Source of the DNA: a virus
IMG/VR virus record: IMGVR_UViG_3300021338_000064
Location: 1 to 47,269 of that record
Strand: one strand, 5' to 3'
DNA: 47,269 nt
A model generated the notes under the pieces. That model did no database searches, was not told where the DNA came from, and worked only from the letters and a program-made list of their open reading frames with translations. Shown piece by piece: positions 2,888 through 46,145 of this stretch. How positions within the stretch are numbered: the first letter of the stretch is position 1; the number at the start of each line of letters is the position of its first letter. The position numbers and the translations under genes were made by a program.

Positions 2888-2991
2888 GCCGTCGCCTCTT
2901 CGCAATCGGCGGCCGGATCCACGGCCGCTCTTTCCGACTTCTCACCGCCCAGGTGGCGGCTCAACCCGAGCGGGTGGAATGCCCGCATCTT

Positions 2992-3070
2992 GCTCCCGTA
3001 GCTCAGTTGGTCAGAGCGGGGTCTCGGACGCGAGACCCGAATGTCGCAGGTTCGAGTCCTGCCGGGGGCG
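2992..3070 (+). tRNA. tRNA-like gene, undetermined anticodon, aberrant anticodon arm
   Basis: A 79-nt cloverleaf. The acceptor stem GCTCCCG (2992-2998) pairs with CGGGGGC (3063-3069) with one G-U; the D arm is GCTC/GAGC; the T arm is GCAGG-TTCGAGT-CCTGC (3046-3062). All are canonical. The anticodon arm is not: after the D stem comes GGGTCTCG-GACG-CGAGACCC (3019-3038), 20 nt instead of 17, pairing as eight base pairs around a 4-nt loop, followed by a 7-nt variable loop. No standard 7-nt loop with U33 can be placed, so no amino acid is assigned. CCA is not encoded. Protein genes on both sides belong to the same phage operon. Confidence 0.7.
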
Positions 3071-3092
3071 AATGTCGCTTGCGAGGCATGGT

Positions 3093-3251: not shown

Positions 3252-3470
3252 GTGAAGACGGATCAGAAGTACGGGCGCGCGATGAAGCTCGCGCTGGACC
3301 TCCAGCTCGAGGAACCGATCGACGTAGAGGCCGCCACTGCCCGCCACCCCAGGGCCCCAGCCGACGCACTTGACCGCGTCCTCGCAATCCTCCTGCCCAT
3401 GCTTGAGGAGCTGAAGGAACCCCTCGCCGAAGGGCAGGAGTGCCCGCTCTGTGGAGGCACGCCATCGTGA
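3252..3470 (+). CDS. Small phage protein with CPLCGG zinc-knuckle half
   Basis: A 72-aa protein starting at GTG 3252, six bases after GGAGG (3241-3245). The body is helical; the C-terminus carries C-P-L-C-G-G, half of a zinc ribbon, so it might bind metal as a dimer or with a partner. The stop overlaps the methyltransferase GTG start. No family is assigned. Confidence 0.6.
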   Translation: MKTDQKYGRAMKLALDLQLEEPIDVEAATARHPRAPADALDRVLAILLPMLEELKEPLAEGQECPLCGGTPS

Positions 3471-4171
3471 CCCTCATACAGCGATCGATCCTTCCCGAGT
3501 TCGACGAGCTCGCCGAGCACGAGCGACTCGACGAATGGGAGGTCTGGCGGACGCCGCTCCCCGTGGCAATGCAGCCACTGCGGTTCTGCGTGGACCGAGC
3601 CTTCATCGCATGGCGCCCCTCGCCGCTGCGCATCCTCGACCCGTCCGCAGGGTGCGGCGTCTTCGGAGTCGCCGCGCGCCATGTGTGGCAACGCGCCGAG
3701 CTTACGGCGGTGGAGCCTCGGCCCGAAGAACGGCCCGGACTGGAGCGCATCTACGACACGGTCATCACATCGCGGTTCGAGGACGCCGCGCTCGACGGCC
3801 CCTTCGACCTGATCGTCACCAACCCCGCATTCAGCACATGGGGCGATGTCTGGGAGAAGGCGATCGGCCTCCTCGCACCGGGAGGCCTGCTTGTCCTCTA
3901 CCTGCCCAGCACGATGGGCCACTCAGACGAGCCGGCCGAGCGCGGCGACATCTTCGACCGCCACCCACCGATCGCCCAGCTGCGCGTCATAGGTCGTGTC
4001 GCGCACCGCACTGGGACCAACCCGAAGACCGGCAAGAAGTACGGCCGGGACAACCGAAAACACTCGTTCTGGGTCTGGCGGCAGGGCACCTGCCGCGGCG
4101 CCTGGCGAACACACAACCTGCCTCGCCTCTCGAAAGAGGACCTCACCTACCGCCCCCTCGGAGCCGCATGA
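3467..4171 (+). CDS. DNA adenine methyltransferase-like protein
   Basis: A 234-aa protein; GTG 3467 overlaps the upstream stop (GTGA). It has the class I methyltransferase AdoMet loop DPSAGCGVFG at residues 58-67 (motif I) and NPAF at 119-122, which corresponds to the NPPF/NPPY catalytic motif IV of N6-adenine enzymes, with Ala in the third position. A hydrophobic strand (GGLLVLYLP) follows, as in motif VI. There is no separate target-recognition domain of note. Likely role: methylation of phage DNA, perhaps against host restriction, or methylation of another substrate. No partner endonuclease is adjacent. Confidence 0.7.
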   Translation: MTLIQRSILPEFDELAEHERLDEWEVWRTPLPVAMQPLRFCVDRAFIAWRPSPLRILDPSAGCGVFGVAARHVWQRAELTAVEPRPEERPGLERIYDTVITSRFEDAALDGPFDLIVTNPAFSTWGDVWEKAIGLLAPGGLLVLYLPSTMGHSDEPAERGDIFDRHPPIAQLRVIGRVAHRTGTNPKTGKKYGRDNRKHSFWVWRQGTCRGAWRTHNLPRLSKEDLTYRPLGAA

Positions 4172-5304
4172 TCGACATCTCCATCGACACGAAGACCCTG
4201 CTCGCGGCCGTGAAGGCCTCGATTCCCCACCTCACCACGGAGGTCCACCTTCCAGCCATGAGTCGCCTGTGCCTCAAGGCGAAGGACGGCCATCTCAGCA
4301 TCATCGCGTGGAAGGGCCTTTCCGGCCGTCGGCAGGACCTTGAGTGCGAAGTTCACGGCGAGGGCAGCATCGTCTTCGGAGGCAAGAGCTTCGCCAGTCT
4401 GCTCTCGAACCTCCGGGGCGACACGGTCCGCCTCACCGCTGACGAAACGACCTTCTGGGTCACGATCAAGTGCGGCCGTAGCAAGACGAAGCAGGCGGCC
4501 TACCCGGTCACTGACTACCCCGACGTTCCTGATCTTCCGGGGGATGCGGAGATGCTCGAGGTCGACCCCAGCGAGCTCGGCGAAGCGCTTCGGCACGTCC
4601 TGTTCTCGGCATCGTCGGATGACGCGAGGGTCAACATCTTCGCCGTACACATCGCCAAACGCGACGATGCCGTGGACGTAGTCACCACCGATGGGCATCG
4701 CATGGCTGCGTACACGGTCAGCGACGGCGCTTGGCCGCTCCCGACCTCCACCATCTCAGCTCCGGGAGCGAAGAACCTTCTGCAGGAGCTCGACGGCGAA
4801 CGCAGCGTGCGGCTCGGTGTAGGGGTGGATGGCCGGTACCTCATCGCCCAGGTCGGGAACTCAACGTGGACCGCAGCGCGCATCGTGGAGGTCACGTTCC
4901 CCCCCTATGTGCAGGTGATCCCGAAGAGGAAGAAGGGAACCCTCACCGTCCCCCGAGAGGACCTGCTCGGCGCGCTGCGTGTGGTCCTGCCAACGGCGGA
5001 GCAGAAGGCCCCATCATGCAGTCTCATCCGGGACGGCGACACCATCGTCGTCCACGTGGACTCAGAGCGAGGGCTCGCGTCCTCCGAGGTAGACGTCGAA
5101 ATCGACGGTGAGGCTCCTGCGGTGATCGGAGTCAACATCCGGTATCTCGCCGACGCGCTGGAGCACGCGAGCGACGACAAGGTCCAGATCGACGTCGAGA
5201 CCTACCTCGACCCGATGGTCGTTCGCGAGGGCGCGTACCGGGCGGTCGTCATGCCGATGCGAACCTCAGCCGCAGACGCGCAAGGGAAGGCCAGCCGTGC
5301 GTGA
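4168..5304 (+). CDS. dnaN: DNA polymerase III beta subunit (sliding clamp)
   Basis: A 378-aa protein, close to the usual length of about 366, starting at ATG 4168 (ATGA overlap with the methyltransferase). Diagnostic elements: TTDGHRMA in the second domain, FPPYVQVIP (family consensus FPDYxxVIP), VNIRYLADAL and the C-terminal PMVVREG...VVMPMR, matching the family's PxVxxxG...VVMPMR ending. Known role: a ring-shaped dimer that tethers the replicative polymerase and other enzymes to DNA. A full bacterial-type clamp inside a phage early operon is uncommon. It implies that the phage supplies its own clamp to the host polymerase or to phage DNA-processing enzymes. No phage DNA polymerase is visible in this window. 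Confidence 0.93.
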   Translation: MIDISIDTKTLLAAVKASIPHLTTEVHLPAMSRLCLKAKDGHLSIIAWKGLSGRRQDLECEVHGEGSIVFGGKSFASLLSNLRGDTVRLTADETTFWVTIKCGRSKTKQAAYPVTDYPDVPDLPGDAEMLEVDPSELGEALRHVLFSASSDDARVNIFAVHIAKRDDAVDVVTTDGHRMAAYTVSDGAWPLPTSTISAPGAKNLLQELDGERSVRLGVGVDGRYLIAQVGNSTWTAARIVEVTFPPYVQVIPKRKKGTLTVPREDLLGALRVVLPTAEQKAPSCSLIRDGDTIVVHVDSERGLASSEVDVEIDGEAPAVIGVNIRYLADALEHASDDKVQIDVETYLDPMVVREGAYRAVVMPMRTSAADAQGKASRA

Positions 5305-6209
5305 GCCACGTCCGACTCAGTCCACGGTGGTACGCGGCAGACCTCGGGTTGAGCTGGGCTGCGCGCAACCTGGCCCCCTGGCTCCTCTGCGCGGCAGCCG
5401 AGAGCCCCGACGAGCGCTGGCTGCTCACCAAGTCGGGCTGCCCCGTCGACCTCACCGTAGGTCCGCCGGGGGCCCGCGCGGCGGTCGAGGAGCTACTCCT
5501 CGCGGGACAGCTCGAGCGCCGGGAAGACGGTGCACTCGGGTGGACCTGGGATGCGTGGGGGCTTCTCCTCGGCCTTACAGCGGGGGCGCTACGGCAACGC
5601 CGATGGCGGGCGAAAAAGAAGCCCAGTCAGCCCGCCTCTCCGGCGCCAGCCTCACCACGCATCGAGCCTCCGCCGCCACGCGTCGTCCCAGGCTTCGCTC
5701 CCAAGGCGCCGCCGGTCCGGGTAGCACCGCCGCCAGAGGTCGGTGTCCCGGCCGGTATCGGCGTGGAGACGGAACGCATCAAGGAGGCGCTCATCTACGG
5801 CCGCCTGCAGCCCGACGGGACAACGCAGAAACCGCCGGAACCGCGGGGAATGCCGCGCCTTCGACCTCCAACGGCAAGCAAGCTCCACGAGCTGCTCTCA
5901 CGTGGCTACACGGCCGACGAGGTGCTCGATGCGGTGTGGGGGCTCGCCGAGATGATCGAGCGGCGGGACGCGGATCCCGTCGAGTGGTGGAGAGCCTCGC
6001 GCATCTTCTCCGGGTACTTCGACACGCTTGTCGTGATGGTCACAAAGTGGCGCGCAGACAGGCAGGCCAAGGCTGCCGCCCGCCTCGAGTCGTCAGGCGC
6101 TCCCGCAGCGAACGAAGGCCCGGCCCACATGGGGGACCTGGACATCGCACGCATGTTGCAGGGCACCGCGTACGGAGGGCCAACAAGTGAACGAGCTGCG
6201 TCCGATTGA
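5301..6209 (+). CDS. Phage replication-initiator/helicase-loader-like protein
   Basis: A 302-aa protein from GTG 5301, overlapping dnaN by four bases. Residues 1-90 look like a winged helix-turn-helix similar to the N-termini of phage replisome organisers. Residues 110-150 form a Pro/Ala-rich linker. The C-terminal segment (about 190-245: LLSRGYTADEVLDAV...EWWRASRIFSGYFDTLV) resembles the conserved phage C-terminal domain (Phg_2220_C) of initiator proteins. Placement straight after the clamp supports a replication role. The assignment rests on domain layout and not on a catalytic motif. Confidence 0.6.
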   Translation: MSHVRLSPRWYAADLGLSWAARNLAPWLLCAAAESPDERWLLTKSGCPVDLTVGPPGARAAVEELLLAGQLERREDGALGWTWDAWGLLLGLTAGALRQRRWRAKKKPSQPASPAPASPRIEPPPPRVVPGFAPKAPPVRVAPPPEVGVPAGIGVETERIKEALIYGRLQPDGTTQKPPEPRGMPRLRPPTASKLHELLSRGYTADEVLDAVWGLAEMIERRDADPVEWWRASRIFSGYFDTLVVMVTKWRADRQAKAAARLESSGAPAANEGPAHMGDLDIARMLQGTAYGGPTSERAASD

Positions 6210-7105: not shown

Positions 7106-7479
7106 GCACCACCAAAGACCCCACCCGACTCGTGATCCTCGAATCCCCGTACGCCGGAGCGACCGCGGCGAACGAAGAGTACGCCCGCGACTGCATGCGC
7201 GACTGCCTGCTTCGCGGCGAGGCTCCATTCGCCTCGCACCTGCTCTACACGCAACCCGGAGTCCTCGACGACAACATCCCCGAAGAGCGTCAGCACGGAA
7301 TCGCCGCGGGCTTCGCCTGGCGTGCAGTGGCTCAAGCGACCATCGTCTACACCGACCTCGGCATCTCCCGCGGGATGGAGCTCGGCATCGCCGACGCGAA
7401 GACTCGGGGGGTGCCCGTCGAGTACCGCCAGCTCCCCGAGTGGGCGCCGCTTCGAGCACCGGAGGTCGCGGATGGCTGA
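7102..7479 (+). CDS. DUF7768 (nucleoside 2-deoxyribosyltransferase-like) protein
   Basis: A 125-aa protein from ATG 7102 (ATGA overlap). It matches the phage DUF7768 pattern closely: VILESPYAG near residue 11, YARDCMRDCLLRGEAPFASHLLY, VLDDNIPEER, and VYTDLGISRGMELGI. The family is related in fold to nucleoside 2-deoxyribosyltransferases and is common in phages, but its reaction is not established as far as I know. With the ASCH and nucleotide-hydrolase-like neighbours it suggests nucleotide or base salvage during infection. Confidence 0.75.
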   Translation: MSTTKDPTRLVILESPYAGATAANEEYARDCMRDCLLRGEAPFASHLLYTQPGVLDDNIPEERQHGIAAGFAWRAVAQATIVYTDLGISRGMELGIADAKTRGVPVEYRQLPEWAPLRAPEVADG

Positions 7480-8035
7480 GCTGTCCAAGGCCGAGCTCAA
7501 CCGGCTGATCGAGAAGGGCTTCAACGCCCGGGACATCGCCGAGATCTGCGGGTGCTCCCCCGCGACCGTGCGACGCCGTGCCCGGACCTGGGGGCTCACC
7601 GTTCGTCGGCACCACCAACCCGAGAAGCTGCTCCGGATGTACCGGGAGCTCGGCTCGATCGAGGCCGTCGGCAGCAAGCTGGGACTCACTGGCTCTGCGG
7701 TCTCCCGCATCCTCCGGCAACACGTGCCCGGCTACGCCGGGTCGAAGAGTGGCGTCCGCTACACCGACGAGGATCGCGAGAAGGCGCTCCAGATGTACAT
7801 CGACGAAGTCCCCATCGACAGCATCTGCGCGGAGCTGGGCTGCTCGCGGTCGACGGTCACGGTATGGGCAGCCAGGGATGGAGTTGGCCGTGGAGCGGGT
7901 CGTCGTCGCTCCTACGAGCCGCAAGAGGCGGCCGAGCTGTACGAGAAGCTCGGCACGCTGAAGGACGTCGCAGAAGTCCTCGGGGTCTCGATCTCATCGG
8001 TGGGACGAGCGCTGCAGGAGGTCACGCCGTGCTGA
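7472..8035 (+). CDS. Regulator with four tandem helix-turn-helix units
   Basis: A 187-aa protein from ATG 7472 (preceded by GGAGG, eight-base overlap with the previous gene). Four HTH-like repeats can be read in series: about residues 5-40 (ARDIAEICGCSPATVRRRA), 50-85 (IEAVGSKLGLTGSAVSRIL), 100-140 (IDSICAELGCSRSTVTVWA) and 148-183 (LKDVAEVLGVSISSVGRAL). Each has the A/S-x3-G-x5-V spacing of a homeodomain-like or resolvase-type HTH. There is no ligand or catalytic domain. A string of HTHs would contact an extended or repeated DNA site. The target is unknown. Confidence 0.7.
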   Translation: MAELSKAELNRLIEKGFNARDIAEICGCSPATVRRRARTWGLTVRRHHQPEKLLRMYRELGSIEAVGSKLGLTGSAVSRILRQHVPGYAGSKSGVRYTDEDREKALQMYIDEVPIDSICAELGCSRSTVTVWAARDGVGRGAGRRRSYEPQEAAELYEKLGTLKDVAEVLGVSISSVGRALQEVTPC

Positions 8036-10294: not shown

Positions 10295-10727
10295 CGGCTG
10301 GGACGACCACCATGGCTTCGAAGCCGAAGTCATCGGGCCTCCTAGGGGTCAGATCGTTGCGGATCAACCGATCGTGACAACTGACACTCGTGTCGCGATC
10401 GTCCCGGAGACGAGGATAGCTGAGACGTTCGAAGCTGACGATGCGCCGCCTCTCGAGGTCTCAAGTCTGGCTGATGGGGAGGTGTTTCAGCCGCCTCTCG
10501 AGGTCTCAAGTCTGGCTGATGGGGAGGTGTTTCAGCCTCTTGCTCTCTTCCTGCCACAGGACATGTACGACGAGGAAGTGGGCGACGCGCTTGAGGTCCT
10601 TGACCGACTCGTCGCGAAGGGGGCGCCTGGTTGGCAACTGCGGGCAAAGGTCGTCAGCACGTATTTTTGGTGCTGCATCAACGCGATCCGCTACATCATC
10701 GGGAAGTCTCGCCGCAAGGTGAAGTAG
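10287..10727 (+). CDS. Hypothetical protein with exact 15-residue duplication
   Basis: A 146-aa protein from GTG 10287, preceded by GGGAG and overlapping the PadR stop. No family is recognised. Residues about 54-83 are two identical copies of PPLEVSSLADGEVFQ, encoded by an exact 45-bp tandem repeat. The C-terminal third (LPQDMYDEEVGDALEVLD, then LRAKVVSTYFWCCINAIRYI) is helical, with a hydrophobic segment that could be buried or membrane-associated, and ends in a basic tail. Confidence 0.65.
   Translation: MHSGWDDHHGFEAEVIGPPRGQIVADQPIVTTDTRVAIVPETRIAETFEADDAPPLEVSSLADGEVFQPPLEVSSLADGEVFQPLALFLPQDMYDEEVGDALEVLDRLVAKGAPGWQLRAKVVSTYFWCCINAIRYIIGKSRRKVK
10446..10535 (+). repeat. Exact 45-bp tandem duplication
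   Basis: Unit 1 is 10446-10490 and unit 2 is 10491-10535; all 45 bases are identical. The unit length is a multiple of three, so the reading frame of the surrounding gene is kept. Lack of any mismatch, even at third codon positions, points to a very recent duplication. Confidence 0.95.
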
Positions 10728-11043: not shown

Positions 11044-11442
11044 ATGCCCATCAGCAACACCGAGGCAGACGCCATTCTCAACCGCATGCGGGGCGTCGCT
11101 GCTCCCGCCTTTGACGCCCAAATCGCGCTCTACAACGGCGACCCGCTTGGCGCGGGTGTCGAGCTGAGCGGCAGCGGCTATGTTCGGTACGACCCCGCGG
11201 ACGGAGACTGGACCGCCCCGACAGCAGGGACACCGAACGGTCGCATGATCGAGAACACCGCAGAGTGGCTGTTCGGCGAAGCGACTGCGGACTGGTCCCC
11301 GGCGGACTACTACGCCGTGGTCGACGCGAGCGGCACGGTCCGCTACTCGGAGGCGATCACCGGTGGTGCCGTGACGGTGCTCAGCGGCAACCGGGCTCGC
11401 ATCCCCGCGGGGTCGATCCGGGTTCGCATCGGCAACTCGTAG
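11044..11442 (+). CDS. Phage tail fibre-type protein (short paralogue)
   Basis: A 132-aa protein. ATG 11044 is chosen because MPISNTEADAILNRMRG aligns with the start (MISNVEADAVLNRLRG) of the 514-aa fibre protein at 23182-24726; in-frame ATGs at 11023 and 11029 are possible. Both share YNGDPLGAGVELSG and a layout typical of small phage tail fibre proteins (LALYxGDP...GxELSGxGY...W...). Here the protein ends after that domain, whereas the paralogue continues into an esterase-like domain. Likely part of the virion's adhesion apparatus. Confidence 0.7.
   Translation: MPISNTEADAILNRMRGVAAPAFDAQIALYNGDPLGAGVELSGSGYVRYDPADGDWTAPTAGTPNGRMIENTAEWLFGEATADWSPADYYAVVDASGTVRYSEAITGGAVTVLSGNRARIPAGSIRVRIGNS
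11125..11171. repeat. 47-bp inverted-repeat copy A (with 24602-24648)
   Basis: A near-identical inverted copy lies at 24602-24648, 13.4 kb away, inside the long fibre paralogue. The rest of the two genes is far more diverged at nucleotide level, so this block stands out. Confidence 0.9.
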
Positions 11443-23181: not shown

Positions 23182-24726
23182 CTAGTCAAACTCCGTGCTG
23201 CGGCCGTAGTAGTCGTCGAGCGCAGCTACGATGCGCTCCTGAATCTGGAGTTGGGTCGTGGCCGACCAGTCGAGGTCGAGCTCTGCATCGGGCGGGCCTG
23301 CCGGGTTGATCCCCGTGTCGTACGGCCAGTTCCCCGCCCCGGTGGCGTGCCCCCCGTAGATCCGCGAGCCATCTGGCGAGATCAGGTCGTCGAACGGGTT
23401 TGGCAGACCCGCCGGCGACGAGAAGGTCATGTCCCCGCGCGGGTCAACATCCCAGAGCGCGTACGCCCAAGCCCATGTGTGGATGATGGTCGCAATCGCG
23501 TTCTGGTGCGAGTTCCTCGGGAACCACGTTGGCCCGTCGGGGTCCTCCGGGTCGATGGGAACCGCAACATCCCCCTGGCTTCGCATAGGCCACGCGAGGT
23601 TCGCACCGCCGGGCTGGAGCGAGTTCGAGTGGGTCAAAGCCGCATACGAGGGCACGGGACTCGTAAGCCCAGACCCTACTGATCCGGAGGCCCCTCTGAC
23701 GCAACGAGACAAGACGTAGTGGTCGGGAAGGACTGCCCCCACCACGCCCTCGTTCTCAAGTTGCCGAGCTCCGAGGACTTGGAGTCGAACAGTTCGGTCG
23801 AAGTCGGAGAGGTCGAGATCGGCGTTCGGGTTGAACCCCTCGTGGGTCATCCGCAGTACGACACCGTTGACCCCGCCAGCACGGAGCTCAGACGCGACCC
23901 TCCGCACAACTTCCAGAATCACACCATGGGTGTTCGGGTTGGTTCCTCCGGCACCCGGAAGCACCTCCCAGTCGATCCCGGCGCCGGGGTTCAGATCCTG
24001 GTTCCGGCGAAAATCGGACGTCAGGACAACCTGGTCGTACGTGTTCGAAGGAACCGAAAGCACGGCATCGACAGCGTCGGTTGAGCCGACCCCTCCTGAC
24101 TGGTCGATGGTGGGGTGGAGGGCCATCCCTCCGAGTGTCATTGACGTGAACCAACCGTCGTTGTCCCCGATCGTCGTATCCAAGTACGGGGGGGGGCCAA
24201 GGGAAACGGAGCTGCCCGCGAGACGCTGCCCAAGGTAGTAGGCCAGAAGCGCGGGGATCCCCCCGAAGTTTTGAGTGTAACTGTTCCCGACGAACGCCAC
24301 CGACGCGTCGAGGCCGAGAGAGGGCACGACGAGGCCAGAACCACCGAGCTGTAGGGACACCGCGCCGGTTGGCACGACGACGCGGTAGCCATCGGCGATG
24401 GAAATCGGCGACGGCAAGGCGCCTGCCCACCGAACGCCAGAGGGGTCCTCGACGGCCCAATGCGTCGCAGTGCCCCAACTTCCGACTGCGCCAGGTGTCA
24501 GCTCGAGGGCCTGGGCGTTCTGCATCTGCCGGCGCCCACCTGCACCCGCGGTTGGCAACGCCCAGTTGGCCGGGACAAGGGCCAGCCGGGAGTAGTCCCC
24601 ACCGCTCAGCTCGACGCCCGCGCCAAGCGGGTCGCCGTTGTAGAGCGCGAGCTCGCCTGCCACCGCAAGCGCAGTGATGCCGCGCAGGCGGTTGAGGACA
24701 GCATCCGCCTCGACGTTGCTGATCAC
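23182..24726 (-). CDS. Tail fibre with SGNH-hydrolase-like domain
   Basis: A 514-aa protein from ATG 24726, overlapping the gp25-like gene stop by four bases. Residues 1-135 match the short fibre protein at 11044-11442 (MISNVEADAVLNRLRG, YNGDPLGAGVELSGG). After residue about 138 an SGNH-like domain begins: VAFVGNSYT (block I nucleophile Ser position in G-N-S) with a far C-terminal FPRNSHQNAIAT (Ser-His before a helix, block V His position). Such domains are esterases or deacetylases, in phages often acting on acetylated surface polysaccharide. The oxyanion Gly/Asn blocks are not certain by eye. Likely a receptor-recognising or receptor-modifying fibre. Confidence 0.7.
   Translation of the reverse strand: MISNVEADAVLNRLRGITALAVAGELALYNGDPLGAGVELSGGDYSRLALVPANWALPTAGAGGRRQMQNAQALELTPGAVGSWGTATHWAVEDPSGVRWAGALPSPISIADGYRVVVPTGAVSLQLGGSGLVVPSLGLDASVAFVGNSYTQNFGGIPALLAYYLGQRLAGSSVSLGPPPYLDTTIGDNDGWFTSMTLGGMALHPTIDQSGGVGSTDAVDAVLSVPSNTYDQVVLTSDFRRNQDLNPGAGIDWEVLPGAGGTNPNTHGVILEVVRRVASELRAGGVNGVVLRMTHEGFNPNADLDLSDFDRTVRLQVLGARQLENEGVVGAVLPDHYVLSRCVRGASGSVGSGLTSPVPSYAALTHSNSLQPGGANLAWPMRSQGDVAVPIDPEDPDGPTWFPRNSHQNAIATIIHTWAWAYALWDVDPRGDMTFSSPAGLPNPFDDLISPDGSRIYGGHATGAGNWPYDTGINPAGPPDAELDLDWSATTQLQIQERIVAALDDYYGRSTEFD
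24602..24648. repeat. 47-bp inverted-repeat copy B (with 11125-11171)
   Basis: The reverse complement of this segment matches 11125-11171 at 46 of 47 positions (one C/T difference). It encodes the shared YNGDPLGAGVELSG part of the two fibre paralogues. Confidence 0.9.
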
Positions 24727-27693: not shown

Positions 27694-28104
27694 CTAGTCG
27701 ACGCCGGTCCAGACGCACTCGGCTTGGAACACGTTGCACGCCATCTGGTGCAGCGTGAAATGGTCGACGAAGACTGCATCGGAACCCTTCGTCTCACGAG
27801 GCCGGCTGACGACGGTGATCGGGCCGACGCTGCAGCCAACCGACTTGAAGCCGTGCCCCCGCGCCATCTCCTCGAGGCGCTCGAAGATGACGCCCGCAAT
27901 CACAGGCAGCACAACCACGGCGACACTCGCCGTCGGGTTGTCGACGGCGTGCTCCAGGGCGGCCCGGAGCATCTTCTCAGTCCGGCCAGACCCGCGACCA
28001 CCAGCGATGCGACGCTCCGTCGCGCGAGCCTCCTTCAAGGCACCCGCGTCGACCACGATCTCCCCGATGCTCAGCCCTTGGCTGATGGTCTCCCCGGAGG
28101 ACAT
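27694..28104 (-). CDS. Small tail-module protein with P-loop-like motif
   Basis: A 136-aa protein from ATG 28104, with GAGG just upstream. Near residue 34 it has RIAGGRGSGRTEKMLRAALE, which looks like a Walker A loop (GxGSGxT) except that the usual Lys is Arg, followed by a helix and a hydrophobic strand VAVVVLP. It then reads like the first alpha-beta-alpha part of an ATPase but stops before a clear Walker B. It could be a degenerate or regulatory nucleotide-binding protein, or the resemblance could be chance. Not recognised as a standard tail family. Confidence 0.6.
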   Translation of the reverse strand: MSSGETISQGLSIGEIVVDAGALKEARATERRIAGGRGSGRTEKMLRAALEHAVDNPTASVAVVVLPVIAGVIFERLEEMARGHGFKSVGCSVGPITVVSRPRETKGSDAVFVDHFTLHQMACNVFQAECVWTGVD

Positions 28105-28165
28105 TCCACCTCAGCATGCAACCCGACTACAGCAACGAAAATCGGGACATCGCGAGGCGAGAAAG

Positions 28166-28196
28166 AAGGGCCGCCGCGATGTGCGCGACGGCCCTT
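28166..28196 (-). terminator. Intrinsic-type terminator after the 49-aa gene
   Basis: AAGGGCCG (28166-28173) pairs with CGGCCCTT (28189-28196), with further CGCG/CGCG pairing inside. On the minus strand the hairpin begins six bases after the TAA of the 49-aa gene and is followed by CTTTCTC, a moderate T-rich tail. It would separate the inserted segment from the downstream tail genes. Confidence 0.55.
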
Positions 28197-28201
28197 CCGG
28201 G

Positions 28202-28351
28202 TTATGGGGCTGACAGACCCAGGACCGCGCTGAGGTAGTCCTCAACGTGGTATGCGACCGGTCGTCCCGCGGTTTCGCGGATTACGACCCTCCTGGTGCC
28301 CCCGCAGGGGCAGTCGCGCTTCGTGCATGGATACGTCCGGAAATCGGACAT
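28202..28351 (-). CDS. 49-aa Cys-rich small protein
   Basis: ATG 28351 follows AAGGAGA at good spacing on the minus strand, and TAA 28204-28202 is followed immediately by a terminator hairpin. The protein has CTKRDCPCGG near residues 9-18, a compact Cys cluster that could bind zinc, then a short beta/helical tail. Below usual annotation length limits, but start, ribosome site, stop and terminator agree. Function unknown; it sits in the ImmA/XRE segment. Confidence 0.65.
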   Translation of the reverse strand: MSDFRTYPCTKRDCPCGGTRRVVIRETAGRPVAYHVEDYLSAVLGLSAP

Positions 28352-28524
28352 GACGTGTTGTCTCCTTGCAACTGGCCAGCCTTGACCCTGCGCGGCTCGA
28401 CGTGCATATTTCTTGGGCTCGGGAGAGCACCAATACGCACGACCGTCTAAGCACGGACTGGCGTTTTGCCTGGCTCCCCGTCGAGGCGGCTACCTCGGCG
28501 GTGGGGTCGGCGAAGTCTAGAGGG

Positions 28525-29184
28525 CTACCGGGTGATGTAGAGCCGCCCCCCGTGCAGCTGGATCGGGTAGTGACGCGAGCGGGAGAGCAATCCAAGGTGG
28601 GTCTCCACCATTTTCGTGCTCACGCTGAAGAGTGCCGAGAGACGGTGAACGGCCTGCCCTCCGAGCTGCAACAGTGCTTCCAGCGGCATCAGCAGCTCCC
28701 CTGCGAAGGCCCACGCTTGCCACTCAGGGTCCTCGTATGAGGGGAGGTCCTTTCGCCTGTGCAAGACAGCGGTTGCCACCTGCCCGCTAGGGTCATGGTG
28801 CGAGAGGACCCGAAGCACGTTGTGGTGCAGGAGAGCATGACCACACTCGTGCGCGGCTGTGGTTCTCGCGATCTTGAAATTGGAGCCACCGCTTGCGAGT
28901 GCTTCGAACAGGGAGTTGCGCATGATGATGACGCAGTGCCCCCGCTCATACTTCGTCACCGCGAAGCTGCCCCCCATCAGGCAATCGTCTTCGCTATAGA
29001 CCTGACACCCGAGTCGCGGAAGGTCCTCGTCAACCAAACGGAGGACATCCACCGGCTCGTCGGGCCGGTAGCGCAAGTAGCGACGCAGCGAGGCTGCTTC
29101 GTTGATGATCGACACGAGAGACCGACCAGGCACGCGGAGAACTTGTTCGGAGAGAGATTTGCTCATCGGTCTACTCGTCGACAC
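28525..29184 (-). CDS. ImmA/IrrE-family metallo-endopeptidase
   Basis: A 219-aa protein from ATG 29184, overlapping the XRE gene end by 14 bases. AAHECGHALLHH (His112, Glu113, His116) is the zinc-peptidase site, and EWQAWAFAGELLMP with Glu163 is the family's second signature, giving the third zinc ligand and the LLMP turn. In ICEBs1 and related elements ImmA cleaves the partner repressor (ImmR) after DNA damage to induce the element. The adjacent overlapping XRE gene is the natural substrate here. This is a non-RecA-coprotease route to prophage induction. Confidence 0.9.
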   Translation of the reverse strand: MSTSRPMSKSLSEQVLRVPGRSLVSIINEAASLRRYLRYRPDEPVDVLRLVDEDLPRLGCQVYSEDDCLMGGSFAVTKYERGHCVIIMRNSLFEALASGGSNFKIARTTAAHECGHALLHHNVLRVLSHHDPSGQVATAVLHRRKDLPSYEDPEWQAWAFAGELLMPLEALLQLGGQAVHRLSALFSVSTKMVETHLGLLSRSRHYPIQLHGGRLYITR

Positions 29185-29536
29185 CGAGAAGGCGCAGAAG
29201 CTCGTTCAAGGTGGATTCATCAAGGCTCCCCTCCTGCGCACGGCGCTGGAAGGCGAGTGCCGCCTCTTGAAACGTCGGCGCCTGCCCCTGCAAAGGGATC
29301 GAGACGCCTCGAGACAGGACGGCCAGTCGTTGCAATTCGCCGAGGTCGATGCTGGGCAGCGCTTCTTTGAGCGTGCCCCAGTGGCGCTCGGCGAGAAGCG
29401 TCGGATGCGGGCTGCCTTTCCCGCGCTCGACGTTGCTGAGGAAGACGTGACTCACCCCCAGCATGCGTGACAGCGCGCGCAGGGAGACTCCCTCCCGCTC
29501 GCGTGCATCACGCAGATATGTTCCAAAATTGGCCAC
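29171..29536 (-). CDS. XRE-family repressor (ImmR-like partner of ImmA)
   Basis: A 121-aa protein. GTG 29536 is selected since it opens MANFGTYLRDAREREGVSLR, the normal start of an XRE helix-turn-helix; the longer frame runs through the promoter. The HTH reads LRALSRMLGVSHVFLSNVERGK (split here: recognition helix SHVFLSNVE). The C-terminal 60 residues (from LQRLAVLSRG) are helical and may be the ImmA-sensitive or dimerisation part. The stop lies inside the ImmA start region, so the two are co-translated. It is the best candidate for the lysogeny repressor in this window. Confidence 0.85.
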   Translation of the reverse strand: MANFGTYLRDAREREGVSLRALSRMLGVSHVFLSNVERGKGSPHPTLLAERHWGTLKEALPSIDLGELQRLAVLSRGVSIPLQGQAPTFQEAALAFQRRAQEGSLDESTLNELLRLLGVDE

Positions 29537-29541
29537 GCCAC

Positions 29542-29570
29542 ATGTTAACCTCGCGTGGTTACCGGCGCAA
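29542..29570 (-). promoter_or_regulatory. Promoter of XRE-ImmA operon with operator in spacer
   Basis: On the minus strand -35 TTGCGC (29570-29565) and -10 TAACAT (29547-29542) are exactly 17 bases apart. The dyad GGTAACC-ACGCGA-GGTTAAC (29563-29544; 6 of 7 arm positions symmetric) fills the spacer and reaches into the -10. Transcription would start at about the GTG codon, giving a leaderless message. An operator inside the promoter suggests the repressor controls itself. Confidence 0.5.
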
Positions 29571-29777
29571 CCCAATGGTACAAAATATGGAGTTTTGACC
29601 CAGGTATCGGCGGACAACCACAAGATGTTGTGGCGTCAGGCGTTCAGCCCTGCCGACTATAGGATTCCGGCCATTCGGCCGAAAAGGACCTATTCGGGCA
29701 GCGACGTGCGACGCGGGTCAGGTCGCGCCACACGAGATCGAAAGATCGCCACCAGGGGAGGAGCCCCCCACACTTCG

Positions 29778-30008
29778 TCAACTCTCAGTAACTCGGACCG
29801 TGTTGCGCGTGGCCGAAACTGCGCAAGGGCTCTCCGCACGAAGCAGCTTCAGCACCTCTCGAGCTTCGGAGTCAGCCTGCGCCTCATCCGGAAATCGCTT
29901 CTGCCACTCGCCCCTGCCGGTCATAGTCCAGTTTCGGTTTTCGAGCAATACTCGATGGCCCTCGGATTCGCCTACAGCAAACGCGATCTGGGCGACGACC
30001 GTCTTCAT
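29778..30008 (-). CDS. Hypothetical small protein
   Basis: A 76-aa protein from ATG 30008, overlapping the upstream 90-aa gene by four bases (ATGA). Acidic/basic mixed helical text, no recognised motif. It is the last gene of a short leftward operon beside the XRE/ImmA pair. Confidence 0.55.
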   Translation of the reverse strand: MKTVVAQIAFAVGESEGHRVLLENRNWTMTGRGEWQKRFPDEAQADSEAREVLKLLRAESPCAVSATRNTVRVTES

Positions 30009-30277
30009 ACCGACACCGGCTCTGGGCAGATCACGACTGCGATGGTCGAAATCTGTCTAATCGCCGCCTCCAGCCCCCTTGCCGCCTTCTCAGCAGCCGC
30101 CGGGTCCTCGAAGTCCTGGGAGTACAGTTGCCTCGTAAGCATCTTGCCCTCCGACTCATCGAAAACTCTCTCCTCGTCGACGACCCAGCCGCCGGATTCG
30201 CCGACACGCCGGCAATGCCCCCGGATGTCGAGCTCATCGTCGCCGTGGATCTTGATGGTTAGCTTCATCTTCCTCAT
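30005..30277 (-). CDS. Hypothetical small protein
   Basis: A 90-aa protein; ATG 30277 follows GGAG at about eight bases and gives RKMKLTIKIHGDDELDIRGH as the start, a beta-type opening. The C-terminal half is helical (DPAAAEKAARGLEAAIRQI). No family recognised. Coupled to the next gene by an ATGA overlap. Confidence 0.6.
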   Translation of the reverse strand: MRKMKLTIKIHGDDELDIRGHCRRVGESGGWVVDEERVFDESEGKMLTRQLYSQDFEDPAAAEKAARGLEAAIRQISTIAVVICPEPVSV

Positions 30278-30321
30278 CGCGCTTGCTCCAGTCTGTGTTG
30301 AAACGAATACTCCCACAGCAT

Positions 30322-45021: not shown

Positions 45022-45306
45022 ATGCTCGAAGCCCTCTTCTCACCCGAAGCCGCAGACACGGCGGCCGAGTTTGTCGGCGGCGCGTCCGACATCAGCATCA
45101 CCGGCCTTGCGCTGTGGGTGGCGTACAAGATCGTCCGGCTGTGCGAGGCCGGGAAAGAGTTCCTCGAAGCCCAGACCAAGGCCGTCCAGTCCGTCACGAA
45201 GTCCGTCGAGACCGTGCGCGACGTGGCCAAGGAGGCGGGACGGCACATGCGCCGAACATCCGAGCACCAGAGCCGCCTCGAGGCCATCTTCGAGTCCGCC
45301 GCGTAG
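45022..45306 (+). CDS. Small membrane protein, possible holin or lysis accessory
   Basis: A 94-aa protein from ATG 45022, preceded by GGAG at proper spacing. Hydrophobic helix ISITGLALWVAYKIVRLC (about residues 27-44) is followed by a long amphipathic coil (AQTKAVQSVTKSVETVRDV...). It has no family match. Location after the portal/F genes and before non-coding DNA leaves holin, lysis accessory or ejection roles open. Confidence 0.6.
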   Translation: MLEALFSPEAADTAAEFVGGASDISITGLALWVAYKIVRLCEAGKEFLEAQTKAVQSVTKSVETVRDVAKEAGRHMRRTSEHQSRLEAIFESAA

Positions 45307-45423: not shown

Positions 45424-45457
45424 GTATTGCCGTCTCAGATTGTAGTGACGCCCACGC

Positions 45458-45503
45458 TGACCGTCTCGCCGGAGACGGTGGGCGTCTCGCCGCGAGACGG
45501 TCA
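45458..45503. repeat. Double palindrome unit (copies 1 and 2)
   Basis: Copy 1 is CGTCTCGCCGGAGACG (45462-45477) and copy 2 is CGTCTCG-CCG-CGAGACG (45483-45499). The outer sequences also pair: CTGACCGTCTCG (45457-45468) with CGAGACGGTCAG (45493-45504), so the block can fold as one long cruciform arm or two small ones. Confidence 0.9.
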
Positions 45504-45601
45504 GTGTATGTCGACCTCACAAAGATATCAGGCTCGTTTCCGCTCAACTCGTGCGGTGGCGCACGGATTCTCGGCCGGAATGTGAACGGGCTTACACCGA
45601 C

Positions 45602-45630
45602 CGTCTCGCCGGAGACGTTCGGCCGATATC
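45602..45630. repeat. Palindrome copy 3 with GCCGATATC
   Basis: CGTCTCGCCGGAGACG (45602-45617) is followed after four bases by GCCGATATC (45622-45630). The core is identical to copies 1 and 4. Confidence 0.9.
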
Positions 45631-45689
45631 AGCGAGCTACAGGGTGCTATCGGCCAGTTTTCGCCTAATGTAGCGCCGCACACATTGAG

Positions 45690-45719
45690 CGTCTCGCCGG
45701 AGACGATTGTGCCGATATC
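45690..45719. repeat. Palindrome copy 4 with GCCGATATC
   Basis: CGTCTCGCCGGAGACG (45690-45705) is followed after five bases by GCCGATATC (45711-45719), so copies 3 and 4 share a two-part unit. Confidence 0.9.
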
Positions 45720-45757
45720 GTGGTGCTAGACCCTGCTGCGGTGCCCAGCCTGCGGGC

Positions 45758-45774
45758 CGTCTCGCGGCGAGACG
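45758..45774. repeat. Palindrome copy 5
   Basis: CGTCTCG-CGG-CGAGACG, a 17-bp dyad; its centre is the complement of copy 2 (CCG/CGG), so it is copy 2 in the opposite orientation. Confidence 0.9.
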
Positions 45775-46040
45775 CCTCCCCCCACACCCCCCTCAGACTG
45801 AGATTTAACTTAGGGGCTGGATGATCTCAGGCCATGTAGCTGGCTGGTGGTATGCCGAGAGGGGGCGGGCGTCGACCGCGCGGCGGGGCCGGGGCCCGGG
45901 ATGTGGGCGGATGTGGCCAAGAAAAAATATCGCCGAAAGTCCTTGCGCCTCCTTGCCCCCGGTCCTAAGCCGGATATCGACGAGCTGACACATGGAAAAC
46001 GAGCACACCACCTCCAACGGTGTGCCCTGCGAGCAGACAC

Positions 46041-46114
46041 GAGGCGTTAGTCAAGTTGGTTATAACGCCGGCCTGTCACGCCGGAGGTCGCGGGTTCGAG
46101 CCCCGTCCGCCCCG
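46041..46114 (+). tRNA. tRNA-Asp (GTC) with degenerate 5' half; probable attachment site
   Basis: A 74-nt tRNA-Asp. From the anticodon stem on it is canonical: CCGGC-CTGTCAC-GCCGG (46068-46084, anticodon GTC at 46075-46077), AGGTC, T arm GCGGG-TTCGAGC-CCCGT, acceptor CCGCCCC-G. The 5' half is poor: GAGGCGT mispairs with CCGCCCC at positions 2 and 7, and the D stem GTCA/TAAC has a C-A mismatch. Such a pattern fits a prophage end in which the host tRNA 3' part is joined to phage sequence that only imitates the 5' part. Whether it is still charged is unclear. Confidence 0.75.
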
Positions 46115-46118
46115 CTCA

Positions 46119-46145
46119 AAGCCCACCGCAAGGTGGGCTTTCTGT
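46119..46145 (+). terminator. Intrinsic terminator of tRNA-Asp
   Basis: AAGCCCACC-GCAA-GGTGGGCTT (46119-46140) forms a 9-bp stem with a GNRA-type loop followed by TTCTGTTT. It lies five bases after the tRNA 3' end, the expected chromosomal arrangement, and marks the host side of the junction. Confidence 0.85.

Follow-up and report, generated by a model that had tools for sequence, protein, structure and literature searches.

The window analyzed here is the whole stretch of 47,269 nucleotides of the virus record IMGVR_UViG_3300021338_000064. It was assigned to a tailed phage, with terminase, portal, Mu F, protease and capsid families found in it. It belongs to a lineage remote from every described phage, as the closest capsids among 50,697 phage records in GenBank are ~28% identical to that of the window. 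The last phage gene (45022..45306, + strand) encodes a protein of 94 aa with no assigned role. It is followed by a gene-free right end of 735 bp, running from the end of this gene at 45306 to a tRNA-like sequence that begins at 46041. All five perfect CGTCTC/GAGACG dyads lie within this gap (no strand assigned): copy 1 at 45462..45477 (16 bp, with 8-bp arms including flank), copy 2 at 45483..45499 (17 bp), copy 3 at 45602..45617 (16 bp), copy 4 at 45690..45705 (16 bp) and copy 5 at 45758..45774 (17 bp). A preliminary description of this DNA had given these positions and placed them in gene-free DNA between the last phage gene and the tRNA; a direct pattern search of the window bore out the five dyads, and the gap is as described.

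Copies 1, 3 and 4 share one identical sequence, CGTCTCGCCGGAGACG, whereas copy 2 is a 17-mer of which copy 5 is the reverse complement. The three exact 16-base cores and the two 17-base variants in opposite orientations had both been described before and were found again. Half-sites are separated by a palindrome center of 4 or 5 bp. Copies 2 and 5 together form a perfect inverted repeat of 20 nt (45481-45500 / 45757-45776). Copies 1 and 2, with centers 21.5 bp apart, are indeed nested in a larger dyad, as claimed: a compound dyad at 45454..45507 encloses both, and its arms (45454-45469 / 45492-45507) match at 94%. The upstream flanks of copies 1 and 4 have 15 of 21 bases in common, and a one-sided flank, ACAYTGAS-CGTCTCG, is repeated in slightly altered form at copies 1-4. 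On the + strand, the box GCCGATATC(N5)GCTA comes after copy 3 (45622..45643) and again after copy 4, where it reads GCCGATATC(N5)GCTAGACC (45711..45732). A second palindromic element, GATATC, is also clustered, with four of the window's nine sites in 45524-45978 in a post hoc computation; a search for the pattern GATATC-GCTAGACC returned chance matches in coding DNA only.

Clustering and excluded repeat classes

The perfect pattern CGTCTC-N3..6-GAGACG occurs at five sites in the 47,269 bases, all of them in the array, and the reversed control pattern at none. There are no further perfect copies elsewhere in the window, and copies with two mismatches all fall in coding regions. The largest number of palindromes sharing one 6-bp arm within 320 bp is five. 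The corresponding maximum was four, reached once, in 200 Markov sequences as long as the window, and three, likewise reached once, in 5,000 Markov simulations of the local region. The five-copy cluster is far beyond chance. Among viral contigs the exact core was recovered in 89 stretches, and more than one copy was present in none of the 80 loci listed.

Several common classes of repeats were tried and rejected. The array lacks the regular direct repeats and spacers of a CRISPR array; start-to-start distances are 21, 119, 88 and 68, and orientations are mixed. A terminator scan called none of the window palindromes, and no T-run follows any window copy. The earlier statement that the dyads are neither CRISPR nor ordinary terminators, made from their irregular spacing and missing T-runs, is confirmed. 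A restriction or methylation reading of CGTCTC was also discarded: the rest of the phage contains 40 hexamers against 48.6 expected, with no strong depletion or enrichment.

A related prophage and the attachment site

Portal or capsid queries of viral contigs found no relatives, and a MuF query yielded distant relatives only, from which the palindrome is absent. Searches with the integrase and a four-HTH protein in 318 genomes of the class retrieved a single relative. It resides in a 10.7-Mb MAG (record CAJXVA01, L114) and, along most of 17 kb, is ~75% identical in nucleotide sequence. Its pieces are on separate contigs of one genome and were compared piece by piece. The evidence for conservation comes from two phages only.

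One contig of the relative (L139), homologous to the start of the window, holds attL: the tRNA-Asp is intact here and preceded by a promoter-like leader of its own. The tRNA is followed by ~318 bp and then by a tyrosine integrase gene that reads into the early genes. Since the relative's left end has this intact tRNA-Asp and integrase, the tRNA-Asp-like sequence at 46041..46115 (+) was identified as attR, in agreement with the tRNA attachment site described earlier. Its 5' part is derived from the phage, with broken acceptor and D-stem pairs, and is joined to a tRNA 3' part that comes, together with the terminator, from the host. The host flank with the tRNA terminator hairpin spans 46116..46145 (+). 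From the attL/attR layout it follows that the window begins inside the prophage and that its left end is missing; the window's own int lies outside the record, and the integrase evidence is that of the relative. The order deduced for the phage circle is portal-MuF-small ORF-array-conserved block-att core-int-early genes, with the int side taken from the relative.

A second, unrelated element in the relative's genome (G001:C405, also labelled L140; G001:C120 and C182; L137) uses the same tRNA-Asp gene. Its right flank, seen in G001:C405, equals the host flank of the window, and it has a different integrase, which carries Arm-DNA-bind_3.

We also noted a tRNA-like phage RNA (window 2991-3071, +; L139:3049-3129, -). 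Its anticodon arm consists of an 8-bp stem and a GACG tetraloop in place of the usual 5 bp and 7-nt loop, while the other arms are intact. The relative shows compensatory changes in this arm (GGGTCTCG-GACG-CGAGACCC versus GGGCACCG-GACG-CGGTGCCT). Judged by this predicted fold, the RNA seems to be a tRNA mimic unable to decode, and it is possibly of more interest than the palindrome array. Two further repeats were seen: a perfect 45-bp tandem duplication at 10445-10534, in a region absent from the relative and beside a PadR-type gene, and a 131-nt inverted repeat, 79% complementary, whose arms (11050-11180 and 24593-24723) lie in regions 13 kb apart.

Conservation of the palindromes and the neighboring block

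The right end of the relative repeats the layout of the window. When the core was sought in the same place there, two palindromes, CGTCTCGCCACGAGACG and CGTCTCGCCCGAGACG, were present in the same interval instead of five. The second (copy B, L114:8920-8935) is orthologous to copy 4 and is followed by the same GCCGATATC-N5-GCTAGACC tail, whereas copy 5 is absent in the relative. Non-coding DNA can be aligned over 420 bp (45688-46107, 73%), starting in the flank of copy 4 and ending at the att core. Left of 45688 there is no alignment, yet this part holds three palindromes in the window and one in the relative. All seven copies have the same 12 arm letters, an invariance that is partly built in, because the copies were found by searching for those letters. 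Identical arms amid DNA that cannot be aligned around copies 1-3 make sequence-specific recognition by a phage protein likely.

The alignable block contains further conserved elements, all on the + strand. CTCCCCCCACACCCCCCTCA (45776..45795) is identical in the relative at 20 of 20 positions, and a conserved A-rich block, AAGAAAAAATATCGCCGAAA, lies at 45919..45938. At 45943..45971 follows TTGCGC-N17-TAAGCC, which is promoter-like though below the threshold of a sigma-70 scan, and whose spacer has kept its length while its letters diverged. A hairpin at 46002..46026 is kept in structure in the relative with wholly different stem letters. As this hairpin kept its structure with new letters and the palindromes kept their letters, it is the letters that matter at the palindromes, and this comparison of two phages likely favors protein recognition over pairing alone. 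The relative's 10.7-Mb genome has no second palindrome cluster; besides the pair, the pattern occurs at seven scattered places, compared to two for the reversed control. With these single places only, host REP/BIME repeats were rejected as an explanation. What appears to have been retained beside attP, in both sequences, is a specific sequence in more than one copy.

Another idea is that the palindromes act as nucleic-acid hairpins, in RNA or in extruded single-stranded DNA, for example as RNA-stability or processing elements. Every copy can form a hairpin, 99 of 100 shuffled versions of the region fold less well, and a loop of 3 or 4 nt is a variation that hairpins tolerate. However, there are no compensatory changes among the seven copies, and the stem of copy 4 in the window measures only 6 bp. 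Moreover, in the relative a terminator-like hairpin with a T-run precedes the array, which is therefore probably outside the late mRNA. We regard functional hairpins as unlikely.

Possible roles of the array at attP

The array is probably a place where a protein of the virus binds in order to act on viral DNA. Tentatively, and with some reserve, we favor the reading that the palindromes are cis-acting sites for a phage protein in the attP control region, where they would steer recombination and/or transcription through attP. A phage-encoded DNA-binding protein would recognize them as accessory sites, comparable to the ArgR/PepA sequences beside cer, and the array would be active when the phage DNA is circular. 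Once bound, this protein could decide when or in which direction an integrase without arm-binding domain recombines the DNA, and/or could regulate transcription that crosses attP and enters int and the early genes. Indeed, the Int of the relative (328 aa) comprises core-binding and catalytic domains and no arm-binding domain; Phage_int_M matches from residue 10, and the PHROG integrase profile matched only from position 165. As this Int starts at the core-binding domain, its directionality needs other sites. Two copies of the half-site GAGCGTCTC, inverted relative to each other, bracket the att core of the relative, one 14 nt to the left of the tRNA sequence and the other 7 nt to its right; in ~53 kb the half-site occurs four times outside palindromes (computed post hoc), these two included. 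They give a hint only, as flanking GAGCGTCTC half-sites are absent at the window's attR. Two observations count against accessory sites at attP: half-sites are 4 or 5 bp apart, an unusual freedom if a rigid dimer reads them, and the array is ~265-580 bp away from the tRNA-like att sequence.

The best candidate for the binding protein is the four-HTH protein (7472..8035, +), which is shared with the relative at 52% and was modelled as four trihelical domains; its pairing with the array is a guess. A fold search with this model gave no confident match, the weak scores including a CRISPR-repeat-binding protein and paired-domain/mariner types. It is conceivable, albeit improbable, that an integrase without arm domain is steered by distant palindromes and a dedicated protein with four tandem HTH domains, which would make this attP unlike that of lambda or of plain Xer-type phages.

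Among the roles proposed in the preliminary description, arm-type sites for the integrase are now disfavored; a site for the four-HTH protein and one for replication are still candidates. The array does adjoin attP, but it is palindromic and far from the core (~265-580 bp from the att sequence), and no full palindrome was found on the int side of the relative, where single half-sites flank the core, which is not so at the window's attR. We consider arm-type sites highly unlikely, since an arm-binding domain is missing from the relative's Int. By contrast, the element with the second integrase, inserted in the same tRNA, combines Arm-DNA-bind_3 with short GTGTTCCC repeats beside its core.

Operators of the immunity repressor (29171-29623) fared similarly. 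The palindromes could serve the repressor of the HTH_31 + M78 pair (28525-29623) or another lysogeny regulator, and phage repressors with palindromic multi-copy operators and variable spacers are known, e.g. BPs gp33 (PMC4557955). Yet no further copy is located near any other promoter of the window, and nothing in the relative's contigs corresponds to the immunity region at 27.7-30.3 kb, although the palindromes are kept there. Because the HTH_31/M78 module is absent in the relative while the palindromes stay, such operators are very improbable. The block 27694-30316, with its ImmR/ImmA-like pair (HTH_31 + M78 peptidase) and without counterpart in the relative, is in itself an example of a swapped immunity module.

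The main and strongest rival to accessory sites is a replication origin. In this reading the palindromes would serve an initiator as iteron-like sites, with a G-rich element and short AT-rich stretches behind them and the early replication genes downstream. The long gene-free stretch adjoins the early operon in the phage circle, and the copy number differs between the relatives, as in iteron arrays. The fully conserved CTCCCCCCACACCCCCCTCA was met again in three unrelated phages, in linkers of replication-initiator-like genes, while a control string of the same composition fell in such genes in 0 of ~10 independent places. Finally, the gene at 5301-6209 is laid out like an initiator, and its own linker DNA is without iterons. 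On the other hand, its product has no Pfam match and its model is poor, so that there is no confident initiator. The poly-C/G motif is not commoner than the control (19 versus 16 stretches) and may merely encode a glycine linker, and GC skew has no clear switch point. On balance, we rate an origin as possible but rather doubtful.

Some observations on these genes stand by themselves. CTCCCCCCACACCCCCCTCA or close variants are found in EGGVGG linkers of initiator-like genes of unrelated phages and in non-coding DNA of others (L126-L130, L161-L174). The 302-aa product of 5301-6209 has a compact N-terminus, a proline-rich linker and a C-terminal pattern that recalls phage replication initiators, with no family match. 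Immediately after a methyltransferase-like gene (3440-4171) comes that of a phage DNA polymerase III beta clamp (4180-5304); no polymerase, helicase or primase was recognized.

Terminases use repeated sites, and a packaging (pac) site might be built in this way, but the terminase genes sit at 15.7-17.5 kb. A plasmid-type centromere would likewise match the architecture, as N15 and F centromeres consist of arrays of short palindromes (PMC7205306). However, ParA/ParB were not found among the window proteins scanned, and the element is an integrating prophage. Either function is, in our opinion, most improbable.

Discussion

Should the array prove to be an accessory site, it would reveal by what means a phage integrase lacking an arm-binding domain is directed, and would aid the construction of integration tools for hosts of this kind. 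Should it be an origin instead, the phage group would gain a first replication handle.

The comparison with known systems yields partial likenesses. Like lambda-type attP arm sites, the array lies beside attP, but it is palindromic and distant, and the relative's Int lacks the domain that reads such sites. With iteron-type origins of phages and plasmids it shares repeated sites, a variable copy number and a position in the main non-coding region; here, however, palindromes take the place of direct iterons, and initiator and melting region are at most candidates. The F sopC and N15 IR centromeres are also arrays of short palindromes with spacers (PMC7205306), whereas in our case no partition genes were found, the prophage integrates and the spacing is irregular. 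The repressor operators of mycobacteriophage BPs resemble the array in being several short palindromes with a variable half-site spacer near attP (PMC4557955). BPs sites, however, are spread over five genome regions and the BPs attP is inside the repressor gene (PMC4557955), while the array sites are confined to a single region, and the relative does not share the immunity genes. In the cer/XerCD system, ~180 bp of accessory DNA contain one Arg box (PMC2409434); by comparison, our array is ~265-580 bp from the tRNA-like att sequence and has two to five phage-specific palindromes. Nevertheless, as in cer/XerCD with its ArgR and PepA sites (PMC2409434), candidate protein-binding DNA is located on one side of the core with no full sites on the other side, and the relative's tyrosine recombinase is also one without an arm-binding domain.
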